Virus record (IMG/VR): IMGVR_UViG_3300028025_002671
Span: 1 to 36,233 of that record
Strand: one strand, 5' to 3'
Source of the DNA: a virus
Length of the DNA: 36,233 nucleotides
This document shows, in pieces, positions 1 through 29,099 of this stretch; positions within the stretch are counted from its first letter, which is position 1; each line of letters opens with the position of its first letter. The translations under genes were made by a program, and so were the position numbers. Below the pieces are notes generated by a model, which was not told the DNA's origin, made no database searches, and worked only from the letters and a program-made list of their open reading frames with translations.

Positions 1-52
1 GGTTTATAGGCGCGCCGGTTTTACTGCAGCGGCCAGAAAATTTAGCTTTCAT
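1..52 (-). CDS. 5' stub of a second copy of the MKAKFSGRC small protein (partial)
   Basis: Reading leftwards from an ATG at 52, 17 codons give MKAKFSGRCSKTGAPIN before the window ends. They are identical in DNA to the start of the gene at 2914-3093. An AAGGG ribosome-binding site lies upstream, as in the other copy. The stop codon of an upstream reading frame ending QNES overlaps the start in both copies, although the upstream gene is otherwise lost here. Function is unknown. The rest of the gene lies outside the window, so it cannot be told whether it is intact. Confidence 0.6.
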   Translation of the reverse strand, partial: MKAKFSGRCSKTGAPIN

Positions 53-58
53 TTTGTG
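1..58 (-). repeat. Left arm of a 58-bp perfect inverted repeat (partner 2908-2965)
   Basis: Position p pairs with 2966 minus p for every base from 1 to 58; the first mismatch is at 59. Beyond it, weaker similarity continues to about position 90, with both copies sharing ATTCGACG and CGACGAC blocks at slightly different spacing. The repeat covers the start of one small gene and the end of the gene before it. Because it sits at the very edge of the window, it may mark where an assembly stopped in a repeat, or a true inverted duplication. Confidence 0.95.
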
Positions 59-144
59 ACCCTTGTCGTCGGCCCTGCCCGCCCCGTCGAATGCAAAATG
101 GCACGCGGCCAGGCAGCAGCGCGGCGGCCAGCAGGCGGCCAGGC

Positions 145-190: not shown

Positions 191-250
191 ATGTGGCCAT
201 GTGGCCATGTGGCCATGTGGCCATGTGGCCATGTGGCCATGTGGCCATGT
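187..250. repeat. Eight tandem copies of an 8-bp unit, GGCCATGT
   Basis: Exact copies start at 187, 195, 203, 211, 219, 227, 235 and 243. The period of 8 is not a multiple of 3 and no unit contains a stop, so all frames stay open and give spurious MATWPHGH-type peptides. The unit ATGTGGCC differs by one T from the ATGTTGGC iteron that begins right after it, so the two arrays may be related. Such a perfect short array is prone to gain or lose copies. Confidence 0.95.
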
Positions 251-639
251 TGGCCGGCGCGCAGGCCGGCGGCCAGGTGTTGGCAATGTTGGCAATGTTG
301 GCAGTCAATTTCAGGCCGTAAGTTTTTGTAAGGTTTGAATTTTGTTGGCTATTGTGTTGGCAACATGTTGGCAACCCCAAAACCCACGCGCAACCCGCAT
401 GGGGCCTACGTTTTGGGGGTTTGTTGGCAATGTTGGCTATTTATTTTGCGAGCTCTCCGGCGCTCCGTGCAGCTTATGCTATATATAGCACTATAGTATT
501 ACATATAAATGTTGTTAAGGTTCAATCAAAATAATAGCCAACATAGCCAACAAACAGCAAAAACCTAGATTCTATGCGGCCCGCAGCGTTGGCACTTTGG
601 GCCACGCCCATAGCCAACAACGCGCCAACAACGCCAACA
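248..639. other. Mirror-image iteron array around an AT-rich palindrome; candidate replication origin
   Basis: TGTTGGC occurs on the + strand at 248, 278, 287, 296, 343, 355, 366, 422 and 431. Its reverse complement GCCAACA occurs at 537, 546, 613, 624 and 633. Three left copies and several pairs on both sides are spaced 9 bp apart. Between the arms lies an AT-rich stretch with the perfect palindrome TGCTATATATAGCA at 477-490, centred within about 4 bp of the midpoint between the inner repeats (437 and 537). No coding sequence is convincing. Iterons beside an AT-rich segment are typical of replication origins bound by an initiator protein; a partition or operator site is also possible. No initiator gene was recognised. 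Confidence 0.6.
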
Positions 640-787
640 ATATTGTAAGTAATTTATTTACATAGGGTTTTGCTTACAACATGTAAGTTATTGTTTTACA
701 AGGGTTTTTTAAAAGCTGGCACGATTCTATTATGCTTATATAGTGAGAGGGTAAAAAATTCTCTTACGTTTTAACTATTTTTTAAAG
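640..787 (+). promoter_or_regulatory. Leader and putative operator of the left-arm operon
   Basis: This AT-rich stretch precedes the first gene of the rightward operon. It carries TGTAA...TTACA at 644-662, a perfect CTTACA-aca-TGTAAG palindrome at 673-687, and a half site TTTTACAAG at 694-702. These look like binding sites for one dimeric regulator. A TATTAT or TATATA -10-like sequence lies at 728-742, without a good -35. A short stem GTGAGAG/CTCTTAC (one G-T pair) lies around 743-766. AAAGG at 784-788 is the ribosome-binding site of the next gene. Confidence 0.4.
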
Positions 788-796
788 GTGCCCAAC

Positions 797-1045
797 ATGT
801 TGCAGTATGAATTCACAATGACTAACAAAAGAACCGGCCGCGTCGAACAAAAACGCGCGACGGCCAAAACGGCCGAAATAGCCCGCGCGCAAATTGTTTT
901 GATGTACGGCCGCCAATTTGCTATTTCGGCCGCGCCAGTGGCCGTATACGCGCCGCATTACATACTGGGCGAGATTGACTGCGCCGACTTTCCCGCCGCG
1001 GATACTGCCTGGCTGCTGCGCGAAGCGGCCGCGGTAGGTGTGTAA
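797..1045 (+). CDS. Small protein of unknown function, first gene of the left-arm operon
   Basis: This 82-residue protein was not recognised. A GTG at 788 would add three codons, but AAAGG at 784-788 sits 8 bases before ATG 797, so the ATG is preferred. The N-terminal half is basic, with KRTGRVEQKRATAKTAE, and the C-terminal half is acidic and aromatic. There are no cysteines that would suggest a metal site, apart from one Cys. Being first after the iteron and operator region, it could be a regulator or an early host-takeover protein, but nothing in the sequence shows this. Confidence 0.7.
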   Translation: MLQYEFTMTNKRTGRVEQKRATAKTAEIARAQIVLMYGRQFAISAAPVAVYAPHYILGEIDCADFPAADTAWLLREAAAVGV

Positions 1046-1094
1046 AATAATCCCGTACAATGTAACCTCCAATCAACTAATCGAAAGTAAAGCC

Positions 1095-1283
1095 ATGACA
1101 AAATCCGAAATCCGCGAAGTGCAGAAAATTAAAGCATACCTGGCCGCCGGCTTGGGCGTCGACTTTGCAGCCCGTGCGATCTCTGCGTTAATTCGCGCAG
1201 CCCGTACAAACCGCAGCAAGATCGAATTGTCCCGAGTCGCTGCCGACCTGGGTTGCCAACATCACGCAGAATTTATTTGCTAA
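1095..1283 (+). CDS. Small helical protein of unknown function
   Basis: The 62-residue product begins MTKSEIREVQKIKAYLAAGL and looks mainly helical. The reading frame extends back to a GTG at 1038 that overlaps the previous gene, but that start has no ribosome-binding site. ATG 1095 has GAAAG 7 bases upstream. A helix-rich basic section (ALIRAARTNRSKIELSRVA) would suit nucleic acid or protein binding, which is only a guess. Confidence 0.65.
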   Translation: MTKSEIREVQKIKAYLAAGLGVDFAARAISALIRAARTNRSKIELSRVAADLGCQHHAEFIC

Positions 1284-1296
1284 TAAGGGGTTCAAC

Positions 1297-1557
1297 ATGA
1301 AAATCATTAAATTTAACACCGGCCGCGACTACACCGAACACGGCCAGCGTATTGTGGCCACGCAGCTCGAAAGCGGCCATATTGTGCTGCTCGATCTAGA
1401 TCGCCATATCGATATCATGCTGCCGCCTGGCGTCGAATTCACCCAGGCAGATATTTTGTGGGCCTACGATCTCAACATGAATACCTTTCCTAGTGAGATC
1501 GGCATGTCATACGGCGATTATTACCAGCTGCTCGACCAGCTGCGCGCCGCCGCGTAA
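1297..1557 (+). CDS. Small protein of unknown function
   Basis: This 86-residue protein starts at ATG 1297 after a strong AAGGGG site at 1285-1290. It is acidic, with mixed strand and helix character, and ends in an Ala-rich tail. It has no recognisable domain, signal peptide or membrane segment. GC-rich codons (GCC, GGC, CGC) match the neighbouring genes. Confidence 0.75.
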   Translation: MKIIKFNTGRDYTEHGQRIVATQLESGHIVLLDLDRHIDIMLPPGVEFTQADILWAYDLNMNTFPSEIGMSYGDYYQLLDQLRAAA

Positions 1558-1608
1558 GGCTGCAGCCTGCAGGCCCGCGCGCGGGTTTGTGGGCTGCAAT
1601 TTTGCAGC
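1558..1608 (+). promoter_or_regulatory. Cluster of three perfect palindromes between genes
   Basis: The gap holds GGCTGCAGCC (1558-1567), CCCGCGCGCGGG (1574-1585) and a stem GCTGCAA/TTGCAGC with a two-base loop (1593-1608). No T-run directly follows the strong GC stem except TTTGT, so it is at best a weak terminator. These RNA hairpins could act in attenuation, RNA processing or translation control of the membrane peptide that follows. Confidence 0.45.
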
Positions 1609-1629
1609 TAACTTAAAAAGGTGTTTTCC

Positions 1630-1734
1630 ATGTTGAATTTTCTAGAAGTCGCCGCGCGTGTTGTCGCCGGCCTAGTCGTCGCCGCGGTCCTGGTCGCGTG
1701 CATGTTGTCCTACTTCGACGTTTTGGTGGCTTAA
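1630..1734 (+). CDS. 34-residue single-span membrane peptide
   Basis: ATG 1630 follows an AAAAAGGTG site at 1615-1622 and opens a 34-codon frame. The centre, about residues 11-27 (VVAGLVVAAVLVACMLS), is uniformly hydrophobic, so the peptide should span the inner membrane once. The next gene starts one base after its stop, which supports real, coupled translation. The role is unknown; tiny phage membrane peptides may act in superinfection exclusion, host inhibition or lysis. Confidence 0.65.
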   Translation: MLNFLEVAARVVAGLVVAAVLVACMLSYFDVLVA

Positions 1735-1735
1735 T

Positions 1736-1951
1736 ATGGATGAAATTAACTTTACCGGCCGCCGCCCTTCGTTGGCCCAGTGTATTAAGGCTGCAAAACA
1801 AAGTACCTGCGCAAATATTCGCCTATTGTGGGGCGAAAACTGGTGCGAGTTATCGCGCCAGGCTAATGGCCGCTGGGTTGGCTATGGGTGGCTGCGCACA
1901 ATTGACGCCGGCAAAATCGCGCAGGCATTGAACGAAGGGGCCGCAAAATGA
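1736..1951 (+). CDS. Small protein of unknown function
   Basis: The 71-residue product starts one base after the membrane peptide gene and overlaps the following gene by ATGA. It is rich in Trp and Cys in its middle (LLWGENWCELSRQ, WVGYGWLRTI), which suggests a compact fold. No family was recognised. Confidence 0.75.
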   Translation: MDEINFTGRRPSLAQCIKAAKQSTCANIRLLWGENWCELSRQANGRWVGYGWLRTIDAGKIAQALNEGAAK

Positions 1952-2697
1952 AAATTCTCGGATATATCGCATACGAAGGCCCGTCGGTTATCGACGGCCG
2001 CCCTATTGTCGTCATTGTGAATAAGCTCGCAGGCAGCGCGAACGAGAAAACCGGCGCCGACCTTGTGCAAACCTTCATTATTCGCAGCGATATCGGGCCG
2101 GTCGAAGCATTGAAAACCGGCGACGACGCGTCAATTTGCGGCCAGTGCGTGCACCGGCCATTGTTGGCCCGCGACAATGGCCAGGCGCCGTGCTATGTGA
2201 ATGTAGGCCGCAGCGTGCGCAGCGTTTTTGAAGCATACCGCCGCGGCCGATACACGAAGGCGACGCCCGCCCAGCTGCGCCAGGTCCTGGCCGGCCGTAA
2301 GGTCCGCCTGGGCATTTATGGGGACCCAGCTGCTGCGCCGGTGGCCATGTGGCAGGAAATTCTCGCCGACACGGCCGGCCATGTGGGCTATTCGCACCAG
2401 TGGCAGGCCGTCGGCTTTGATCACGCCGCCTGGGCGCCGCTCGTTATGGCATCGGCCGACACGGCCGACGAAGCGGCGCAGGCTAACCTTTTCGGCATGC
2501 GGGTATTCCGTGTTTCTGTCGGCGTCGACCGGCAGGCGGGCGAGACGACGTGCCCAGCATCGGCCGAAGGTGGCCGCCGCGCGACGTGCGACAAGTGCAT
2601 GCTCTGCGCGGGCACGTCGAAAACCGCGCGCGATATTGTGATCGCCGACCACGCCGTGGGCCATAAGCGACGCGCGATCATGATGCAGGCCGCATGA
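1948..2697 (+). CDS. Conserved phage protein with two cysteine clusters
   Basis: This is by far the largest gene of the left arm at 249 residues. Similar proteins, beginning with a variant of KILGYIAYEGPSVIDG and containing DASICGQC, recur as unnamed phage and plasmid proteins; this is recalled and not checked. Residues about 64-75 carry CGQCVHR. Near the C terminus, about residues 203-222, TTCP...ATCDKCMLCAG gives four more cysteines that could bind zinc. The N-terminal part (IDGRPIVVIVNKLA) looks like a beta-rich domain. The start overlaps the upstream stop and the end overlaps the next start, so it is cotranslated. A nucleic-acid role is plausible but unproven. Confidence 0.85.
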   Translation: MKILGYIAYEGPSVIDGRPIVVIVNKLAGSANEKTGADLVQTFIIRSDIGPVEALKTGDDASICGQCVHRPLLARDNGQAPCYVNVGRSVRSVFEAYRRGRYTKATPAQLRQVLAGRKVRLGIYGDPAAAPVAMWQEILADTAGHVGYSHQWQAVGFDHAAWAPLVMASADTADEAAQANLFGMRVFRVSVGVDRQAGETTCPASAEGGRRATCDKCMLCAGTSKTARDIVIADHAVGHKRRAIMMQAA

Positions 2698-2924
2698 TGC
2701 AAAAAGAATATCCAACTTATGACACGCACGCCGCCGCGGTTTGTTTCGACTGCGCCGGCCAGGTAGGCGCGCCGATAAATTATGGTTTTCCGCGCGGGCG
2801 CTACGGCGCTTGGCGCGAGCGCTGCAAGTGGCGCACGTATTACGACACGCCCGACACGTCGATCAAATTCGACGAAAAGGGCGACCCGATTAACGACGAC
2901 GAAGGGGCACAAAATGAAAGCTAA
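2694..2924 (+). CDS. Small CxxC protein of unknown function
   Basis: The 76-residue protein has CFDCAG at residues 17-22 and a further Cys near residue 44, a possible partial zinc site. Its ATGATG start overlaps the upstream stop, and its end overlaps the next start by 11 bp. The last few codons (QNES) reappear inverted at 42-58, so a remnant of this gene's 3' end exists at the left edge of the window. Confidence 0.75.
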   Translation: MMQKEYPTYDTHAAAVCFDCAGQVGAPINYGFPRGRYGAWRERCKWRTYYDTPDTSIKFDEKGDPINDDEGAQNES

Positions 2925-2965
2925 ATTTTCTGGCCGCTGCAGTAAAACCGGCGCGCCTATAAACC
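2908..2965 (+). repeat. Right arm of the 58-bp perfect inverted repeat (partner 1-58)
   Basis: Every base matches the reverse complement of 1-58. The arm covers the end of the CxxC gene, the ribosome-binding region and 17 codons of the following gene. See the left arm for interpretation. Confidence 0.95.
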
Positions 2966-3093
2966 CAGGCGACGAAATACGATTAGACGCGCAGCGTCGG
3001 CCGTACCTGGTCGACGAAGATACCCAGTGGCAACCCAAGCGGCCGACCGGCCCGCGGCCATTACATTATGTGAAGGGGAGAGGCTATGTTTAG
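2914..3093 (+). CDS. Small protein starting MKAKFSGRCSKTGAPI, probable zinc-ribbon-like fragment
   Basis: The 59-residue product opens with FSGRCSKTGAPINPGDEI, a pattern like the short treble-clef or zinc-ribbon starts (G-x-C-x-x-C/T-G-x-x-I-x-x-G-E-x-I) found in many small phage proteins; here one of the expected cysteines is Thr. A longer frame starting at 2782 is out of step with the neighbours, so ATG 2914, with GAAGGGG just upstream, is chosen. A second copy of its start lies inverted at 1-52. Confidence 0.75.
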   Translation: MKAKFSGRCSKTGAPINPGDEIRLDAQRRPYLVDEDTQWQPKRPTGPRPLHYVKGRGYV

Positions 3094-3277
3094 TACTTAT
3101 TTGCGCCTGCGCGTGCCCGTGTGGGCGTCGACGCGCGAAGTAATTCGCGCCACATACGGCCGCATGCGGCCCGACGCGCGATCGCACGCGCACCGGCCAG
3201 GCCGGCATTCAATCATTCGCGAGATGCTGCAGCATCACGCGGCCGCGCAGGCCGTGCACGCGAGGGCTACGCGATGA
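3086..3277 (+). CDS. Small basic protein of unknown function
   Basis: The 63-residue product is Arg- and His-rich and strongly basic, which suggests nucleic-acid contact. A good GGGGAG site precedes ATG 3086. It overlaps the gene before it by 8 bp and the gene after it by ATGA. No family was recognised. Confidence 0.65.
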   Translation: MFSTYLRLRVPVWASTREVIRATYGRMRPDARSHAHRPGRHSIIREMLQHHAAAQAVHARATR

Positions 3278-3441
3278 AATTTTTAGAACACGTGCCCGAT
3301 CGGGCGACTTACTTAGGCAGCGAGCACGCCGACGGGTCGATTGAAGAGGAAATTTTCGACGCCGTCGACGCGGCCATTGAACCGGCGTTTTATCGCGACG
3401 GGGAAGGGATAAGGCATTATTTTGACCTATTTCAAGACTAA
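3274..3441 (+). CDS. Small acidic protein of unknown function
   Basis: The 55-residue product starts MKFLEHVPDRATYLGSEHAD and is strongly acidic in the middle (SIEEEIFDAVDAAIEP). A frame open from 3121 includes the upstream gene in another frame, but ATG 3274 overlaps the previous stop as ATGA, matching the pattern of this operon. Acidic mini-proteins of phages often mimic DNA, which is only a possibility here. Confidence 0.65.
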   Translation: MKFLEHVPDRATYLGSEHADGSIEEEIFDAVDAAIEPAFYRDGEGIRHYFDLFQD

Positions 3442-3577
3442 GGCGCAGGCCCAGCAGCTGGCCGACCGGCTTAACTACGACGACACGCAGGGATGGACCT
3501 ACCGCGTGCACGCGTCACGCGGCGGTTTTTACGTCGCCGTATTTGACCAAGATTATCACCACCAGGGGAACCTATGA
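3422..3577 (+). CDS. 51-residue protein with a TTG start
   Basis: TTG 3422 opens the frame TYFKTKAQAQQLADRLNYDD..., ending at TGA 3577. An AAGG sits 7 bases upstream. The frame overlaps the previous gene by 20 bp and the next by ATGA, so without it the operon would have an odd 130-bp gap. The design (KTKAQAQ helix, GWTYRV strand, GGFYVAVFDQDYHHQG strand pair) resembles small phage proteins with a TKAQAQ start and a VxVxDEDG end, recalled from memory. Function is unknown. Confidence 0.7.
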   Translation: MTYFKTKAQAQQLADRLNYDDTQGWTYRVHASRGGFYVAVFDQDYHHQGNL

Positions 3578-3816
3578 GATACAAAATAACCTTTTCGCAG
3601 GTTTCAAACTTGCAACGCATAACGCGCGGGCCTGAGCGGTTTGAGGCCGTTTATCACGGCCCAGGCCGACCGATCGACGTGTGGGCCGACACGGCGCCGG
3701 CCCAGCTGCCCGAGCACGTCATGCGCGAGCTGGCTCGCCGTTTTGACGAAGTGCACGCCCAAGACCCCGAAACCCGAGAATTTTATTTAATGGAGGCAAA
3801 ATCATGCAGTATTTAA
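3574..3816 (+). CDS. Small protein of unknown function
   Basis: The 80-residue product starts at ATG 3574 after ACCAGGGG. The N-terminal half looks strand-rich and the C-terminal half helical (EHVMRELARRFDEVHAQ). It overlaps both neighbours. No domain was recognised. Confidence 0.75.
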   Translation: MRYKITFSQVSNLQRITRGPERFEAVYHGPGRPIDVWADTAPAQLPEHVMRELARRFDEVHAQDPETREFYLMEAKSCSI

Positions 3817-4127
3817 CACCACAGGAACAGGAACGACTCGCCTTCGCCGAAGGCTACACCGAAACCGCGGCCATGCTGCGCAGGCTTGACGACGCGCACG
3901 CGGCCCTGGGCGACGAAGTGGCCCTGCAGGCCCAGCTCGACGACTTGGCCACCGAGCGCGACGGCCTGCGCGATGAGCTGGAGCTGGAGCGCAGCGCATA
4001 TGTGGACCTGCGCATAGAGGCCGACCAATGGCACGAAGAATATAAAAAACTGCGCGCGGCCCTGATGGCCCTTGAGGCCGAAGTTAGCCCAGGCATGCGC
4101 GACTTCATTCGCGAGGTGCTCGAATGA
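3804..4127 (+). CDS. Coiled-coil protein of unknown function
   Basis: This 107-residue protein has a perfect GGAGG site 7 bases before ATG 3804. Residues about 25-92 form a long helix with heptad-like Leu spacing and mixed charge, expected to make a coiled coil. The C-terminal MRDFIREVLE is a separate helix. It probably oligomerises; its partner is unknown. Confidence 0.8.
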   Translation: MQYLTPQEQERLAFAEGYTETAAMLRRLDDAHAALGDEVALQAQLDDLATERDGLRDELELERSAYVDLRIEADQWHEEYKKLRAALMALEAEVSPGMRDFIREVLE

Positions 4128-4291: not shown

Positions 4292-6571
4292 TTACGTCGA
4301 CACTTTTTCACCCAGGCGCCGCAGCTCTGACTTACTCAAGCCGGCCAGCTCAGGCGCGCAGAATACGTGTTTTTTAGTCGCGTGCTCGCGTGACGCTAGG
4401 CGGCCACAATCGACCCAACCGGCTTCCTTCAGGGCATGCATCAGCGCGGCGGGCACCAGCTTGACGCCAGGCGCGGCCTGCCCCTGCAGGCGGTCGCACA
4501 GCTGATAGAACGGCGCGGCCACCACCCCTTCGGCAAAATCACCCAGGCGGCGCGTGATCAGGTCCACCAGATACGACTCGCCCATGCTGCGGCCCTGCTC
4601 TACCATAATCATTTTCGCCTCGGTCATAGGCGGCGCGGCGCCAGGGTTAAACGCCGACACGTCGCGCGCATACAGGTAAGCGGCCACGGCAGCAAAGCCA
4701 CCGCGGTGCTGGTACCAGTTCCACAGGGCCACGGCGTCGGCCTCGGGCATGCGGGCGGCCTCGGCCCACAGGCAGAACCACCGGCGATCGTCTGAGGGAA
4801 TGCTGATCGCGGCGCGCTCGTTTGAGAATGCCACCACCAGCACGCGGTTCAGGGCCATGTAGGGGTGCAAGCCCTTACGCTGGACTGTCAGCAACTCAGG
4901 CGGGGCGGCGATGATGGGCTTTAACGTATTCTCAAGCGCGCGTCGATCTTTGGCGTCGGACTGGCGCAGTTCGGCGATCTCCATAACCTCGCACTCGAGC
5001 GCATAGCCCCACTGCTGGGTGAGCTCTTCGTTGCGCACCAGCGAGCAGTTCGCTTTAGCCGCACCCCCAATAGCCCAGAAAAATGGCGCCATCAGGGTGT
5101 CTTTGCCCGAGCCTGGGTGGCCACCGATCAACACGGCGTGGTTAATCTTATGGGCGGGAAATTGGACCTTATGGGCCATCACGTTAAGCAAGTGCTCGCG
5201 CTCGTACTCGATGGGCACCATGCGGTGCAGGTGCCGCAGCCACATGTCCACATCGCCGGCCACGGGCGCGGGGCGGGAGTCCTTCCACCGGTTGCCGTAC
5301 ACCAGCCCATCACGTGCCACCAGCACGTCCGAGCCCGCGGCGTAAGTGACGCCGACCAAGGACTTGGCGCCCTTGGCTTGGCGGTTCTCGTCAAAGCAAA
5401 TCGACGCCTCGATGCGGCGCGGTGTCTTGCTGCTACTGTGCACCGACACGCATTTGATGTGGCGGAATAAGGCGTTGAAGGTTGATCGGGAAATCTCGCG
5501 GCGGTCGGCCAGATCGAAAAATGCTTCGTCGTCTTGCAGATAGGCGAAGCGCTCATACCAGCCGTCGCGCTCAATGCGGCCTAGTTCTTTGCGCTCCACC
5601 TCGGCGACGATCTGGGCGGCCACGTCGGGGTACTCAGGCGTCGGGGCGAGCTTACTGAGCGCGGACTCCATCGCGGTGGCCAGCAGTTCCTCGCGCAGGC
5701 CAGGCGTGTGGCGGGGGCCGCCATTCTCGGCCACCCAGTCTAGGAACGTCGCGCTGTCGAAGTCAACACAATGGCCGTGCAGGCAGCAGAACGCGCGGTT
5801 GGCGGCCATGTAGCGGCCCTCGGGGTTGCCGTCGCTGTGCTGGGCGTTGTTGGGGCAGATGATGCCTGCCCAGCCCTGCGAATTGGGGCGGGTGAGCACC
5901 ATGCCTTGGTCCGACAGCCACGCCAGCACGTCGTCGGCGCCGTCGTCGGACAGGCGGATGGGCTTGAGTTCCTCGTGCGATTCAGCGGGCACGACGCCCA
6001 AGGCGTCGCAGATTTCATCCAAGGTGTAGTCGCGCTCGGGGTGGAACTCGACAAGGCGCGAGCGAAACAGCTCACGGCCAGGCTTCAAGTTGACCGAGCC
6101 AGGGATGCGGAAATTGCGCACGGCGTTGATTGCGCCAGGGTCGGTATAGCCCGCGTCAGCAATGGCTTTGATGGCCGCGGTGAAATCTTTTTTAGTTGGC
6201 TGCTCACTAAAGGCGTAGCCCCATTGGAACGACCCCTCGGACGTCTCCATCTTCCATGTGGGTTCAAGCGGCGGGATGGCGGCTTTGGTGCCCACGTCGT
6301 CCAGCACCATCACCAGCACATACTCGCAGTTGGCCGCGCTGGCCGACGGGTGGCCGTCCACAAAGCGATCGATGATAAAGCTGGCCGTATTCCCGTAGAT
6401 GGCCCAGTCGTCTTTGACGCGGGCGGTGGGCAGCATGGCGGGCCATGTGCACTTGAGGGCCCCGTCGGCGTGGTAGTCATACTGGCCGTCTTTTAATTTG
6501 GGTTTTTGACGCACGATTAACGGCGTCTCGCCCTCGGGGGCCAATTTTGCGATAAACTCTAAGAACTCCAC
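4292..6571 (-). CDS. Primase-helicase (RepB-like primase plus DUF5906-type superfamily 3 helicase)
   Basis: The 759-residue protein should lay RNA or DNA primers and unwind the phage DNA during replication. The N-terminal third resembles RepB-like archaeo-eukaryotic primases: YVLVMVLDDVGTK at about 84-96 and NFRIPGSVNLKPGR at 153-166. A zinc-binding section follows, with Cys239 and Cys262, Cys263, His265, His267 and Cys268 (FCCLHGHC). The helicase domain has the P-loop GGHPGSGKDT at 483-492, an acidic EIAEL at about 531-535, and a sensor-like VVAFSNE at 579-585, as in DUF5906 helicases. It lies downstream of the polymerase gene on the same strand. Priming plus unwinding is inferred from the domains. 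Confidence 0.9.
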   Translation of the reverse strand: MEFLEFIAKLAPEGETPLIVRQKPKLKDGQYDYHADGALKCTWPAMLPTARVKDDWAIYGNTASFIIDRFVDGHPSASAANCEYVLVMVLDDVGTKAAIPPLEPTWKMETSEGSFQWGYAFSEQPTKKDFTAAIKAIADAGYTDPGAINAVRNFRIPGSVNLKPGRELFRSRLVEFHPERDYTLDEICDALGVVPAESHEELKPIRLSDDGADDVLAWLSDQGMVLTRPNSQGWAGIICPNNAQHSDGNPEGRYMAANRAFCCLHGHCVDFDSATFLDWVAENGGPRHTPGLREELLATAMESALSKLAPTPEYPDVAAQIVAEVERKELGRIERDGWYERFAYLQDDEAFFDLADRREISRSTFNALFRHIKCVSVHSSSKTPRRIEASICFDENRQAKGAKSLVGVTYAAGSDVLVARDGLVYGNRWKDSRPAPVAGDVDMWLRHLHRMVPIEYEREHLLNVMAHKVQFPAHKINHAVLIGGHPGSGKDTLMAPFFWAIGGAAKANCSLVRNEELTQQWGYALECEVMEIAELRQSDAKDRRALENTLKPIIAAPPELLTVQRKGLHPYMALNRVLVVAFSNERAAISIPSDDRRWFCLWAEAARMPEADAVALWNWYQHRGGFAAVAAYLYARDVSAFNPGAAPPMTEAKMIMVEQGRSMGESYLVDLITRRLGDFAEGVVAAPFYQLCDRLQGQAAPGVKLVPAALMHALKEAGWVDCGRLASREHATKKHVFCAPELAGLSKSELRRLGEKVST

Positions 6572-6634: not shown

Positions 6635-8543
6635 ATCCCTTGCCGTACCTTGTCATTATCGAGACCTCAACGTCCAACGGCAGGCCCTCGGCCCATGCTG
6701 GTGGGGTGCACATTATGCTCTCCATCTCTTTCATTACTTCCTCGGGGCGCGCGGTCTCGATGACGATCTCATCGTGCACATGCAGCACGACGTCGTCGAG
6801 GTTTCGGAGGGAGTGGCGGAGCAAATCATTGGCGGCGGCTTGGGTGATATTTTCGCATGCCAAGCCCTTCCACAGGCGTGCTCGGGGCCACTCTTTTGCA
6901 TCAGCCGAGGGTTTCCACGCAGCCTTGGCGTAGGTGACATTGCCCTCGGCGTCGAACCTGGCGAACGGGTAATTCAGCACACGGCCAGAGGGTAGGGAAT
7001 ACCATAGGTGCACGCCGTCGTACATGTACGTCACGCGTCCGGCTTTGAACTCGCGGTTTTTGTTTCGCATGGCCCGAAGATATGCCGACTCAAGCGATTG
7101 CCAGTAAGTAGGAGCCCAAGGGTTAGCACGCCGCCAGCCATCCACCATGCGTCGGGCATCGGACTCGGGTAAGAGAACGCCGTAAGCGCGGCCCATAGCA
7201 GCGAAAGCCCCCACACCGCCGGCAAAGCCACAAGCCAGCTCTTGTACTTTTCCGATTTGTCGCTGGTCCTTGGTGACACCATCAACGCTGCATCCGAACG
7301 TCGCTGCGGCGTTAACTTTGTAGACGTCGGCGCCGGTGCGGAAGAGATCGAGCTTGGCATCGCCGACGCCTGAAAGCCAGGGATTGGTCCGTGCCTCAAT
7401 AGCCGCCCAGTCAGCCACCACGAGGGAGTGTCCTGCCCTTGGAATAAGAGCTGGTCGGAGCATCCCTTTGAGGACGTCGGTGACGCGCTTGCCGTACTTG
7501 GGGACGACGCTGTGGCCTCGGACCATTGCATTACGGACTGCGTCGGGCTCATCAGCACACCGGCGGGTGAAGTTGTGGACCTGCGCTCCGTATGAGCTTG
7601 CGCGGCCCGTCGCTGATCCTCCAGCGAAGACAAACGCTCCGCGAACGCGAGAATCCTCGACGTCCGCAAGGTCTGCGAGGCGGCTGAACTTCGCAACCGA
7701 CGACGCCCATAGGTCATCGGCGCATTGAATAACCTCGGCAACAGCGGGCGGTATCTCATCTGGGTTCTCCATCAGTAAAAGGTTGGCACGGACGGTCTTG
7801 TCGATCGAATATTTGTCACCTACGCGCATCAGTTCTTTGGCCTGCGGCCCCACGCGGTCCAGCACCCACTGCTTCATCTTGGGTGAGCGCACGCTGGTGA
7901 TCGCGCCTTCGGTGACTTCGGTGACGATCTGTTGTATTTCCACAACCTCATCCGACGCATACTGGATGGCCGCGCGGCACAAGGGCACGTCCACCAGCAC
8001 GCCGCGATCGTTGATGCGCTCATTGACGTGGTAGTCGGCCAACTCGTCGGCGGAAAGCGGGCGCATGGCCTTGCTGATCGCACGCATGGCCCTGACGTCC
8101 TGCTCGCAGTACTGGATCATCTCAGCCATCAGTTCGGGGTCGTTCTTGAACGGCGGCACGCACATCAGGCGGATGAGCTGGGCACCGCGGTGATCCTTTT
8201 TCATGCTGGCGCCGCTGAAGCGACCGACGTCCTCAAGCGAACCAGGCGCGCAGTTGGCACGGGCTTGGGCTGCGGTGCAGATAAATTGCTCAAGATCAAA
8301 GTTGATGTGCAGCACGTACCAGAAGATTAAGCGCTCAAACGCAGCGTTGTGGGCGTAGATGGGGCCGTCGTAGTTGCGCACCTTGTCGGGAAACGGCATG
8401 TCGGGTGTCCACGTCGTGACCTCATCATCGTCAAACGCGTAGGACATGCACAGCACGTCGGTGCTGGCGTCCATGGCGTAGTTGTAGACGCCGTGTTTGG
8501 GGAGATCACATTCCGACCTAGTTTCAAAGTCAAGCCAGAGCAT
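6633..8543 (-). CDS. DNA polymerase, PolA family with 3'-5' exonuclease
   Basis: The 636-residue replicative polymerase has a DEDD exonuclease domain at the N terminus (DFE at 5-7, and YCEQDV with Asp149 near 145-150). The polymerase domain follows. Motif A is VVADWAAIEAR with Asp378, the O-helix motif B is QRQIGKVQELACGFAGG near 427-443, and motif C is VLHVHDEIVIE with His590-Asp591-Glu592. The Tyr usual in motif B is Phe here, as in other phage enzymes of this type. There is no 5'-3' exonuclease domain, which is normal for phage PolA. The start overlaps the end of the upstream Mom-like gene by 14 bp. Confidence 0.95.
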   Translation of the reverse strand: MLWLDFETRSECDLPKHGVYNYAMDASTDVLCMSYAFDDDEVTTWTPDMPFPDKVRNYDGPIYAHNAAFERLIFWYVLHINFDLEQFICTAAQARANCAPGSLEDVGRFSGASMKKDHRGAQLIRLMCVPPFKNDPELMAEMIQYCEQDVRAMRAISKAMRPLSADELADYHVNERINDRGVLVDVPLCRAAIQYASDEVVEIQQIVTEVTEGAITSVRSPKMKQWVLDRVGPQAKELMRVGDKYSIDKTVRANLLLMENPDEIPPAVAEVIQCADDLWASSVAKFSRLADLADVEDSRVRGAFVFAGGSATGRASSYGAQVHNFTRRCADEPDAVRNAMVRGHSVVPKYGKRVTDVLKGMLRPALIPRAGHSLVVADWAAIEARTNPWLSGVGDAKLDLFRTGADVYKVNAAATFGCSVDGVTKDQRQIGKVQELACGFAGGVGAFAAMGRAYGVLLPESDARRMVDGWRRANPWAPTYWQSLESAYLRAMRNKNREFKAGRVTYMYDGVHLWYSLPSGRVLNYPFARFDAEGNVTYAKAAWKPSADAKEWPRARLWKGLACENITQAAANDLLRHSLRNLDDVVLHVHDEIVIETARPEEVMKEMESIMCTPPAWAEGLPLDVEVSIMTRYGKG

Positions 8544-9159
8544 TTTGTTTCTTCGGGTAAGGTTCTTGGGCGTAGCGAAGCGCTTTCTGCGCCTGCTTTT
8601 TGAAGCGTCGATCGCCCACTAAGTAGATGTAGCGATGTTTGCGTGGCCGTGGGGCTAGATAAAAGTCATCGCCGTAGAAGTCACGCATGGCCTTGGCCCT
8701 GTTTTCAGCGCCGCGGAACTGGTCCGCAATCGTGATGCCGTGCAAATGTTCTTTGCCTTTGACCTTCCAATCTGTTCGCTTGGCGGACAGCCCGCAATAC
8801 AGAAAATTGGTGGCTTGGTAGACGTACCCAAAATGACCTTGCGCAGTGTCAGCAAACGACACCACGATCTTGCCCGCGGGCAGCTGCTGCAGACTTTTGC
8901 CGACCAGCTCACTGGCGTAGTTCTTTTTGTTGTCGCGCAGGCACAAGCGATTTAGCTCAAGCACAGCGTCTGCGTACTCAGCGCCTGCCACACCATTGCG
9001 TAGCGGCGAGCTGGGCGGCGTGCCGTAAGTGACAACGCCGCAGAGCTTGTCTCCATCAAACAAACCAAACGCGTAGCTGATGCTGGGCCAGCGCTTAGCG
9101 TAGTGAATGTTTAAGATGAAGTCAGCGCAGTCTTGGCGGCTGACGGGTTTTACTTCCAT
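8530..9159 (-). CDS. Mom-like DNA adenine modification protein
   Basis: The 209-residue protein resembles the Mom family, whose phage Mu member adds a methylcarbamoyl group to the N6 of DNA adenine and blocks restriction. Features recalled for this family are ISYAFGLFDGDKLCGVVTYG, ELNRLCL, VVSFADTAQGHFGYVYQATN and LSAKRTDWKVKG, in a GNAT-like acyltransferase layout. A longer frame starts at 9195, but AAGGAG lies 6 bases before ATG 9159, so that start is chosen. It overlaps the polymerase gene start by 14 bp, which couples modification to replication. The family call rests on memory of related proteins. Confidence 0.72.
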   Translation of the reverse strand: MEVKPVSRQDCADFILNIHYAKRWPSISYAFGLFDGDKLCGVVTYGTPPSSPLRNGVAGAEYADAVLELNRLCLRDNKKNYASELVGKSLQQLPAGKIVVSFADTAQGHFGYVYQATNFLYCGLSAKRTDWKVKGKEHLHGITIADQFRGAENRAKAMRDFYGDDFYLAPRPRKHRYIYLVGDRRFKKQAQKALRYAQEPYPKKQNALA

Positions 9160-9175
9160 GAGGGGCTCCTTTCCA

Positions 9176-9195
9176 ATGCCCTCTGCAGAGGGCAT
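9176..9195. other. Perfect 20-bp palindrome between two replication genes
   Basis: ATGCCCTCTGCAGAGGGCAT is fully self-complementary. It lies 15 bp after the end of the 207-residue gene and just before the ribosome-binding site of the Mom-like gene. A T-run lies upstream of the hairpin in the - strand RNA, not after it, so it is not a standard terminator. It could be a protein-binding site or an RNA hairpin affecting Mom-like gene expression. Confidence 0.7.
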
Positions 9196-27890: not shown

Positions 27891-29099
27891 TTAGCCCCAG
27901 AGGCGGCAAGCCATTTGTGGGCGGATCGTGCTGAAGCCATACAACACGTCGATACGGCAAGGCATACGGTCGTTGTTGATGTCATACTGACGGACCACAC
28001 GCAAGCTGATACCGTTGTGCACTGCGCGAGCAGCCATGTCCACACCTTGTGGCAACAGCAAGTCGGCGGTAGCGAACGAGATCGCATCTTTGTGGTACAC
28101 CAAGTTCTGAGCGTACTGAGTAGAAGCAGCACCCACGAACACAACAGCTTTGCTGGTTGCAGGCAATGAGTCAACAGTAGCCAAGGCGTTAGTTGCAGAG
28201 TAGATAGGAGCCACAGTGATAGTGCCGGCGCCAGAGCCGTTCAGAGTCACGTCGGCAGTAGCCACGAACTGGAACAACGAACCAGTGGATTCACGGGTTT
28301 GTGGGTTCACAGAGTAGCAATCAGCGATAGTGAACACGTCACCGATTTTGACGGTAGTGTTGGCACCAGCTCCAGTGATGGAGATAGAAGTTGCGCCTTC
28401 AGCAGTCACAGCAGCAGAAGTTGTACCGCCGGTAGCTGTACGCGAACCAGTGGTGAACTGCTTGATAGACTGAGACATGTTGATCTCGTCAAAGCCCAAC
28501 ACGCCAGTACCCATCATGCCGTTCTTGAACTGCTTGCTGATAGTGTCGGTGGGGTTGAACAAACCTTTCATGCCTTCAACCAAACCTGCGTTAGCAGCTG
28601 GGTTGACGGTAGCGTAACGTGGAGACATCACGGCTGCGTTTTCGTTCAGTTTTTGTTGAGCTTGCAACAGAACCAAAGAAGTGGCAGGAGTGGTGCCAGG
28701 TGTACCAACGGTGTTACCAACGCTCTTGTAAGAGTTGGCTACGTCAGCGTCCACGCTAGAAGCCAATTGGCTAATACGAGGCTTCAACACACGCTCAGCG
28801 AAGTCGTCCAATTGCATGGTCAATTCAGCAGATGTGAAGTTGATACCAATGTGCTTTTGGCTAGACACGGTCAAGGTGGTGAACTGTTCGTTGTCGTCTT
28901 GCACTTGCAAGGCGGCGCCGTCAGTTACCAGAGCGCGGTCGGGCAAACGGATACGCAAAGTAGAACCGATCTTGGCACCTTCAACAGCAAAGCTGTCGTC
29001 GTACTGACGGTTGACGTTACGGGTGATAACAAGGTTGTTCTCGAGGATTTCGAGCGCCTTGCGGGTGATCATGTCGATCGTTAAGATGCTGTTTGACAT
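27891..29099 (-). CDS. Major capsid (coat) protein, P22 gp5-like
   Basis: The 402-residue protein (P22 gp5 has 430) opens SNSILTIDMITRKALEILEN, as in P22-type coat proteins. It continues with IGSTLRIRLPDRALVTDGAA, SQKHIGINFTSAELTMQLDD and the C-terminal part ISLRVVRQYDINNDRMPCRI. The insertion domain appears to lie near 225-290 (TSISITGAGANTTVKIGDVF). It is made with the scaffolding protein and probably needs chaperonin help, as P22 coat does. Confidence 0.93.
   Translation of the reverse strand: MSNSILTIDMITRKALEILENNLVITRNVNRQYDDSFAVEGAKIGSTLRIRLPDRALVTDGAALQVQDDNEQFTTLTVSSQKHIGINFTSAELTMQLDDFAERVLKPRISQLASSVDADVANSYKSVGNTVGTPGTTPATSLVLLQAQQKLNENAAVMSPRYATVNPAANAGLVEGMKGLFNPTDTISKQFKNGMMGTGVLGFDEINMSQSIKQFTTGSRTATGGTTSAAVTAEGATSISITGAGANTTVKIGDVFTIADCYSVNPQTRESTGSLFQFVATADVTLNGSGAGTITVAPIYSATNALATVDSLPATSKAVVFVGAASTQYAQNLVYHKDAISFATADLLLPQGVDMAARAVHNGISLRVVRQYDINNDRMPCRIDVLYGFSTIRPQMACRLWG

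Follow-up and report, generated by a model that had tools for sequence, protein, structure and literature searches.

The window analyzed here is a 36,233-bp virus record (IMGVR_UViG_3300028025_002671), a fragment in the form of an incomplete contig. It encodes a P22-like portal, a major head protein, a terminase large subunit, a family-A DNA polymerase, a Mom-like protein, a DUF2800 protein, and a primase-helicase. A cluster of short, mirrored repeats (positions 248-639) separates the left-arm small-gene operon from the terminase side. This locus is most likely an iteron-type replication origin of a P22-like podovirus, at which the repeats are bound by the C-terminal winged helix of the DUF5906 primase-helicase. 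In a family of freshwater phages, DNA copying very probably starts at these mirrored repeats.

The array is composed of nine forward copies of TGTTGGC, starting at 248, 278, 287, 296, 343, 355, 366, 422, and 431, and five reverse copies, GCCAACA on the plus strand, at 537, 546, 613, 624, and 633, all packed into 392 bp. The plus-strand copies form an outer left group (248-302, with 9-bp spacing from 278), a middle group (343-372), and an inner pair, TGTTGGCaaTGTTGGC, also at 9-bp spacing (422-437). The minus-strand copies form an inner right pair (537-552, GCCAACAtaGCCAACA on the plus strand) and an outer group (613-639). Markov simulation of bases 1-1200 yields a mean of 0.4 and a maximum of 4 copies of TGTTGGC in 2000 runs, and the whole window holds 27 copies compared to a mean of 9.5 in shuffles. 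The chance of a perfect split of nine forward and then five reverse copies is 1/2002. An earlier note on this DNA had described these right- and left-pointing copies, and their exact positions and convergence were recovered, in numbers far above those simulated. Between the inner pairs is a center of 99 bp that is 67% AT (438-536) and is a candidate unwinding element. It contains a perfect 14-bp palindrome, TGCTATATATAGCA, at 477-490. The center of the palindrome, at 483.5, is 3.5 bp from the midpoint of the inner repeats at 487, in agreement with the offset of about 4 bp given earlier. As in iteron-type origins, the sites are short, directly repeated, and clustered in a non-coding region.

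With the primase-helicase as the query, 221 loci were collected from viral contigs, and 190 more, one of them from a metagenome-assembled genome (MAG) contig, were later held out. Most relatives that reach the intergenic region have clustered repeats before the terminase, often other than TGTTGGC. At this equivalent site, between the left-arm operon and the terminase, the 9-bp-spaced repeats fall into at least 15 sequence classes. These include TTGCCAACA, TTGTCCACA, TTGACTACA, ATGACCCAA, TGGCACACA, and TGACCCACA, and further TTGCCCACA, TTGCCGACA, TTGCCTACA, TTGCCCTCA, TTGCCCGCA, and TTGACCACA. The dominant spacing of adjacent copies is a 9-bp tandem (441 pairs in one orientation and 206 in the other). 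The gap between convergent arrays has a median of 94 bp and is 63.5% AT, and an AT-rich element adjoining the repeats, another feature of iteron-type origins, is found in the window and its relatives alike. Mirror symmetry holds across relatives as a tendency, with convergent sites at 0.84 versus 0.71 when orientation is shuffled. The palindrome does not generalize in the same way. Perfect AT palindromes of at least 10 bp occur in a minority of relatives, 17% of loci versus 8% of shuffles, and the palindrome was rejected as an essential general element. The earlier note had also counted absence of the repeats from close relatives among the findings that would refute its reading. TGTTGGC is indeed lost, but relatives replace it with another 9-bp repeat and a matching change in the initiator, so this test would have misled.

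The arrangement extends to MW202483, a distant named circular phage with a P22 coat and portal whose primase is 50% identical. Its CTACCAA repeats, at ~28785-28990, occupy the equivalent site, have 9-bp spacing, and converge on AT-rich sequence. Near these iterons, the same phage (locus L535) has a second cluster of eleven TGTAAAC repeats at 28225-28580. Low-copy TGACCCACA sites also turn up next to other iteron classes in L126, L351, L257, and others, which would suit a second factor or a degenerate site.

The proposed initiator is the 759-amino acid primase-helicase, encoded on the minus strand at 4292-6571. DUF5906 is the sole Pfam domain reported on this protein, and its phrog annotation is DNA primase. 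When the last 113 residues were modeled with AlphaFold2 (mean predicted local distance difference test score, or pLDDT, of 87), the order of elements was helix, strand, helix, helix, strand, loop, and strand. This region is accordingly modeled as a winged helix, with the domain at residues 663-738 (4358-4585, minus strand) and the wing loop at residues 726-733. The best viral structural matches of the C-terminal domain are the C-terminal parts of NrS-1-like primases. Primase divergence between loci with different repeats is concentrated in the last 60 residues. Over this stretch L154 and L134, which share a repeat, are 94% identical; L154 and L142, which have different repeats, are 54% identical there and ~88% identical elsewhere.

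The residues that follow the repeats are found in the wing. Among 496 variable primase columns in 67 representatives, columns 726 and 731 rank first and second, with 1.16 and 0.84 bits of information on repeat class (bias-corrected) and a median column at 0.20. They lie in the wing segment LASREHATKKHV (residues 725-736; 4364-4399, minus strand), which has A726, R728, and A731 as its putative specificity residues; the assignment draws on the information on iteron class and the held-out prediction. When each repeat base is taken separately, the best residue is 731 for N4, 726 for N6, and 728 for N1, N7, and N8. K726 with D731 is paired with TTGTCCACA repeats; A726, R728, and Q731 with TTGCCAACA; T726 and P731 with TTGACTACA; and A726 with S, G, or A at 728 with ATGACCCAA. 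For pairs whose primase bodies have an identity of 0.85-0.90, wing identity is 0.90 when the repeat is the same versus 0.58 when it differs. On a tree of the primase body (residues 1-646, wing excluded), the repeat class changed at least 35 times. For TTGTCCACA versus K726, 7 independent pairs on well-supported branches gave a mean of 6.7 concordant and 0 opposed (p ~0.016). Both wing and repeats have switched in the sister pairs L149/L158, L160/L169, L197/L206, and L270/L274, whose bodies are similar. As far as can be read from sequence, every strong repeat switch is matched by changes in three wing-tip residues of the primase-helicase, and therefore repeat and residues are predictable from each other. 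The phage has a helicase/primase of its own with a putative DNA-binding domain matched to the repeats, as indicated by DUF5906, the winged-helix model, and the residue-repeat association.

The prediction rules were written down before the new loci were fetched, and the scored predictor was the class commonest in training loci with identical residues 726/728/731. For held-out loci with at least 7 copies, these residues were correct in 29/29, the nearest wing in 46/46, and the nearest primase body in 24/46, in trials that are not independent because the held-out loci are related to one another.

Several points weigh against this reading. When all held-out calls with at least 4 copies are kept, accuracy is lower, at 45/58 for the residues, 66/91 for the wing, and 38/91 for the body; many of the misses are weak arrays or two-class mixtures. 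The training loci supplied the list of repeat patterns. The keys SRQ, HRN, GRQ, and HRP each map to more than one class, and the three residues are an incomplete class definition. Loci of the L180/L277/L292 type combine the LASREYQTKK wing with weak arrays or with TGCCTACA/TGACCCACA repeats. More broadly, the L178 clade group (L180, L188, L277, L292, and others) has LASREYQTKK-like wings with mixed or weak repeats, and in L180, L188, L277, L292, and their kin the TGCCTACA/TGACCCACA mixtures or weak arrays occur despite a TTGCCAACA-type wing. Linkage accounts for part of the association, because exchanges often carry the wing, the repeats, and the genes between them together. Matches of the winged-helix domain to solved structures are mostly winged helices and are weak (best Z 6.1). 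A Foldseek search of the Protein Data Bank (PDB) with the C-terminal domain gave no match below E 0.001, with the P4 origin-binding domain and RFX1 not listed, and a PDB sequence search with the primase gave nothing meaningful. Cumulative GC skew, a check proposed in the earlier note, has extremes at 13.0 and 24.5 kb and no signal at the repeat locus; the contig is incomplete, and the skew was judged uninformative.

In the proposed mechanism, the C-terminal winged helix of the phage's own primase-helicase would bind the 9-bp repeats, and its wing would read the variable repeat bases through residues 726, 728, and 731. The convergent arrays would load two helicase rings, one on each side of the AT-rich center. 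The loaded helicase would then melt the center, and bidirectional synthesis would be primed for the family-A polymerase of the phage. Physical binding, melting, the two rings, bidirectionality, and replication from the repeats are what we infer from the observed repeats, their position and symmetry, the winged-helix model, and the residue-to-base association with its held-out prediction. Bidirectional replication initiation had been one of the suggestions made for this locus. The initiation part is well supported, with the phage's own primase-helicase as the likely binder, and copying in both directions would be part of the proposed mechanism. A further proposal, which we consider slightly more doubtful than probable, is that the association amounts to a near-digital natural code, in which three wing residues set the bases of the origin repeat and at least 15 code words are switched by module exchange. 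Competition or parasitism directed at origins could be the driver, if phages of the same code interfere in one cell and phages of different codes are compatible there.

The alternative that survives best, though improbable, is a shared operator, through which a transcription regulator would control the divergent left-arm and terminase operons; this regulator could be some other phage protein or, by autoregulation, the primase. The intergenic position between these operons would suit an operator. So would two promoter-like sites, at 716-744 next to the repeats and at 518-490 inside the AT center, but such sites are no commoner than in shuffles. Ten to twenty sites in 9-bp tandem are many for a simple operator, and the repeats are tracked by a segment of the replicative primase-helicase. 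The sole other near-universal left-arm family (63/67 loci, single-linkage) is unassociated with the repeats, with an area under the curve of 0.54 versus 0.87 for the wing. Of the shared operator suggested earlier, a separate operator-binding protein that follows the repeats finds no support, and autoregulation by the initiator is possible.

It is quite unlikely that another protein of the left-arm module binds the repeats and that the wing merely hitchhikes in the same recombination block. The sisters L197/L206 and L270/L274 would fit such hitchhiking, as they differ across the whole module from wing to repeats; this segment is replaced, and the terminase flank is ~90% or more identical. However, L160/L169 and L162/L184 differ at both ends while much of the middle stays alike, and the identical residue-repeat pairing is found again in clades whose left-arm genes differ. 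The single near-universal open reading frame (ORF) family does not follow the repeats and was rejected as an alternative binder on the same comparison in 67 loci. The phrog_2554 protein, found in 21/67 representatives, was also rejected because its association is weaker than that of the wing. Among the left-arm protein families compared, none tracks repeat class as well as the wing.

A partition (ParB/parS-like) or packaging (pac) site is highly improbable: clustered, symmetric repeats also occur in centromeres and the small terminase gene adjoins the locus in relatives, but no ParA/ParB-type gene or other partition protein, such as the partition-like complex of the earlier note would call for, is among the proteins scanned (the small ORFs are mostly unmatched and the contig is incomplete), and the terminase genes are nearly unchanged across repeat switches.

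The left-arm operon of small genes (788-4127, plus strand) heads away from the proposed origin. On the other side, a leftward gene stub had been described at 1-52. Bases 1-71 (minus strand) are an inverted copy of 2894-2965 (70/72 identical); therefore, the stub is a chimeric duplicate and no true neighbor gene, and the contig ends in a foldback chimera. The junction has a short shared sequence, and the duplicate looks like a foldback product of amplification or assembly. Where the window has the stub, its close relatives L124 and L125 have the small and large terminase genes. Genes thus diverge on both sides in relatives, as the small-gene operon and the terminase genes, and the stub itself drops out.

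Other elements are found near the repeats. The 8-mer GGCCATGT forms a tandem array at 187-250 that continues into the first TGTTGGC, and similar GC-rich tandem arrays adjoin iterons in some relatives, such as CTGGCTGC in L136. A AGAATCGTGCCAG element at 716-728 (minus strand) adjoins the iterons, is conserved in 21/222 loci, and has a promoter-like match on the opposite strand. A G-rich element resembling GGGTAGGGCCGACG occurs at 62-90 and, in L124 and L125, just before TerS; its GGGTAGGGCC form is present in 116/222 loci and is a candidate packaging or regulatory site. The Mom-like DNA modification protein (8530-9195; Pfam Mom, E 1.6e-42) is encoded inside the replication gene block. When the first 8 kb of the window was compared with named phages at the nucleotide level, one weak match was obtained, and a scan of genome contigs for prophages or hosts gave one MAG contig, from a beta-proteobacterium. 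A scan of the collection for TGTTGGC pairs returned mostly unrelated sequences among the matches listed.

If this reading is correct, an origin and its initiator are assigned to P22-like freshwater phages, a large group that is mostly uncultured. It would also provide an iteron origin for NrS-1- and D5-related primase-helicases; earlier proposals for proteins of a similar kind were of stem-loop origins. With dozens of changes in DNA-binding specificity spread over hundreds of matched protein-DNA pairs, these phages offer a natural data set that makes specificity switching and fast origin diversification directly testable questions. Origins in metagenomes would become predictable from protein sequence.

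Among known systems, NrS-1-like proteins share the DUF5906 helicase, and they are the best viral structural matches of the C-terminal domain; NrS-1 itself differs in using an 8-nt template site (PMC7102993). pRN1 ORF904 shares a C-terminal winged helix (PMC4234260). In the pRN1 study, stem-loops and not iterons were proposed as the origins used by pRN1 and by primase-SF3-winged-helix proteins, among them the one from Bordetella phage BIP-1 (PMC4234260), and the window phage family, with its iterons, appears to depart from these. Recognition through the wing has a precedent in RFX1, where the major groove is read by the wing instead of the helix (PMC4333399), and an RFX5 chain is among the weak structural matches. 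RFX1-type proteins are eukaryotic transcription factors, and homology is not claimed.

By analogy, the locus is best read as working like the P4 alpha origin, the SaPI Rep origin, and the PLE RepA replicon modules. The alpha protein of satellite phage P4 has a Toprim primase (PMC4234260), whereas the phage studied here has a DUF5906 helicase (NrS-1/D5-like), and a comparison aimed at a domain like the P4 origin-binding domain gave weak winged-helix matches of the C-terminal domain. In SaPI Rep and SCCmec Cch2, the C-terminal domain of a self-loading helicase binds short iteron repeats (PMC7581432), and an initiator helicase with a C-terminal repeat-binding domain is proposed here too. Those elements and hosts are different, and their origin lies directly downstream of the helicase gene, whereas here it is 2-4 kb away, beside the terminase. 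For PLE RepA, cognate pairing and swapping of the DNA-binding domain with the origin have been demonstrated experimentally (PMC8263062). Cognate initiator-origin modules are likewise suggested here, where the pairing comes from sequence association. PLE uses an N-terminal RepA_N domain and ~30-bp iterons in two groups, whereas in these phages three wing residues would be paired with 9-bp repeats of at least 15 classes.
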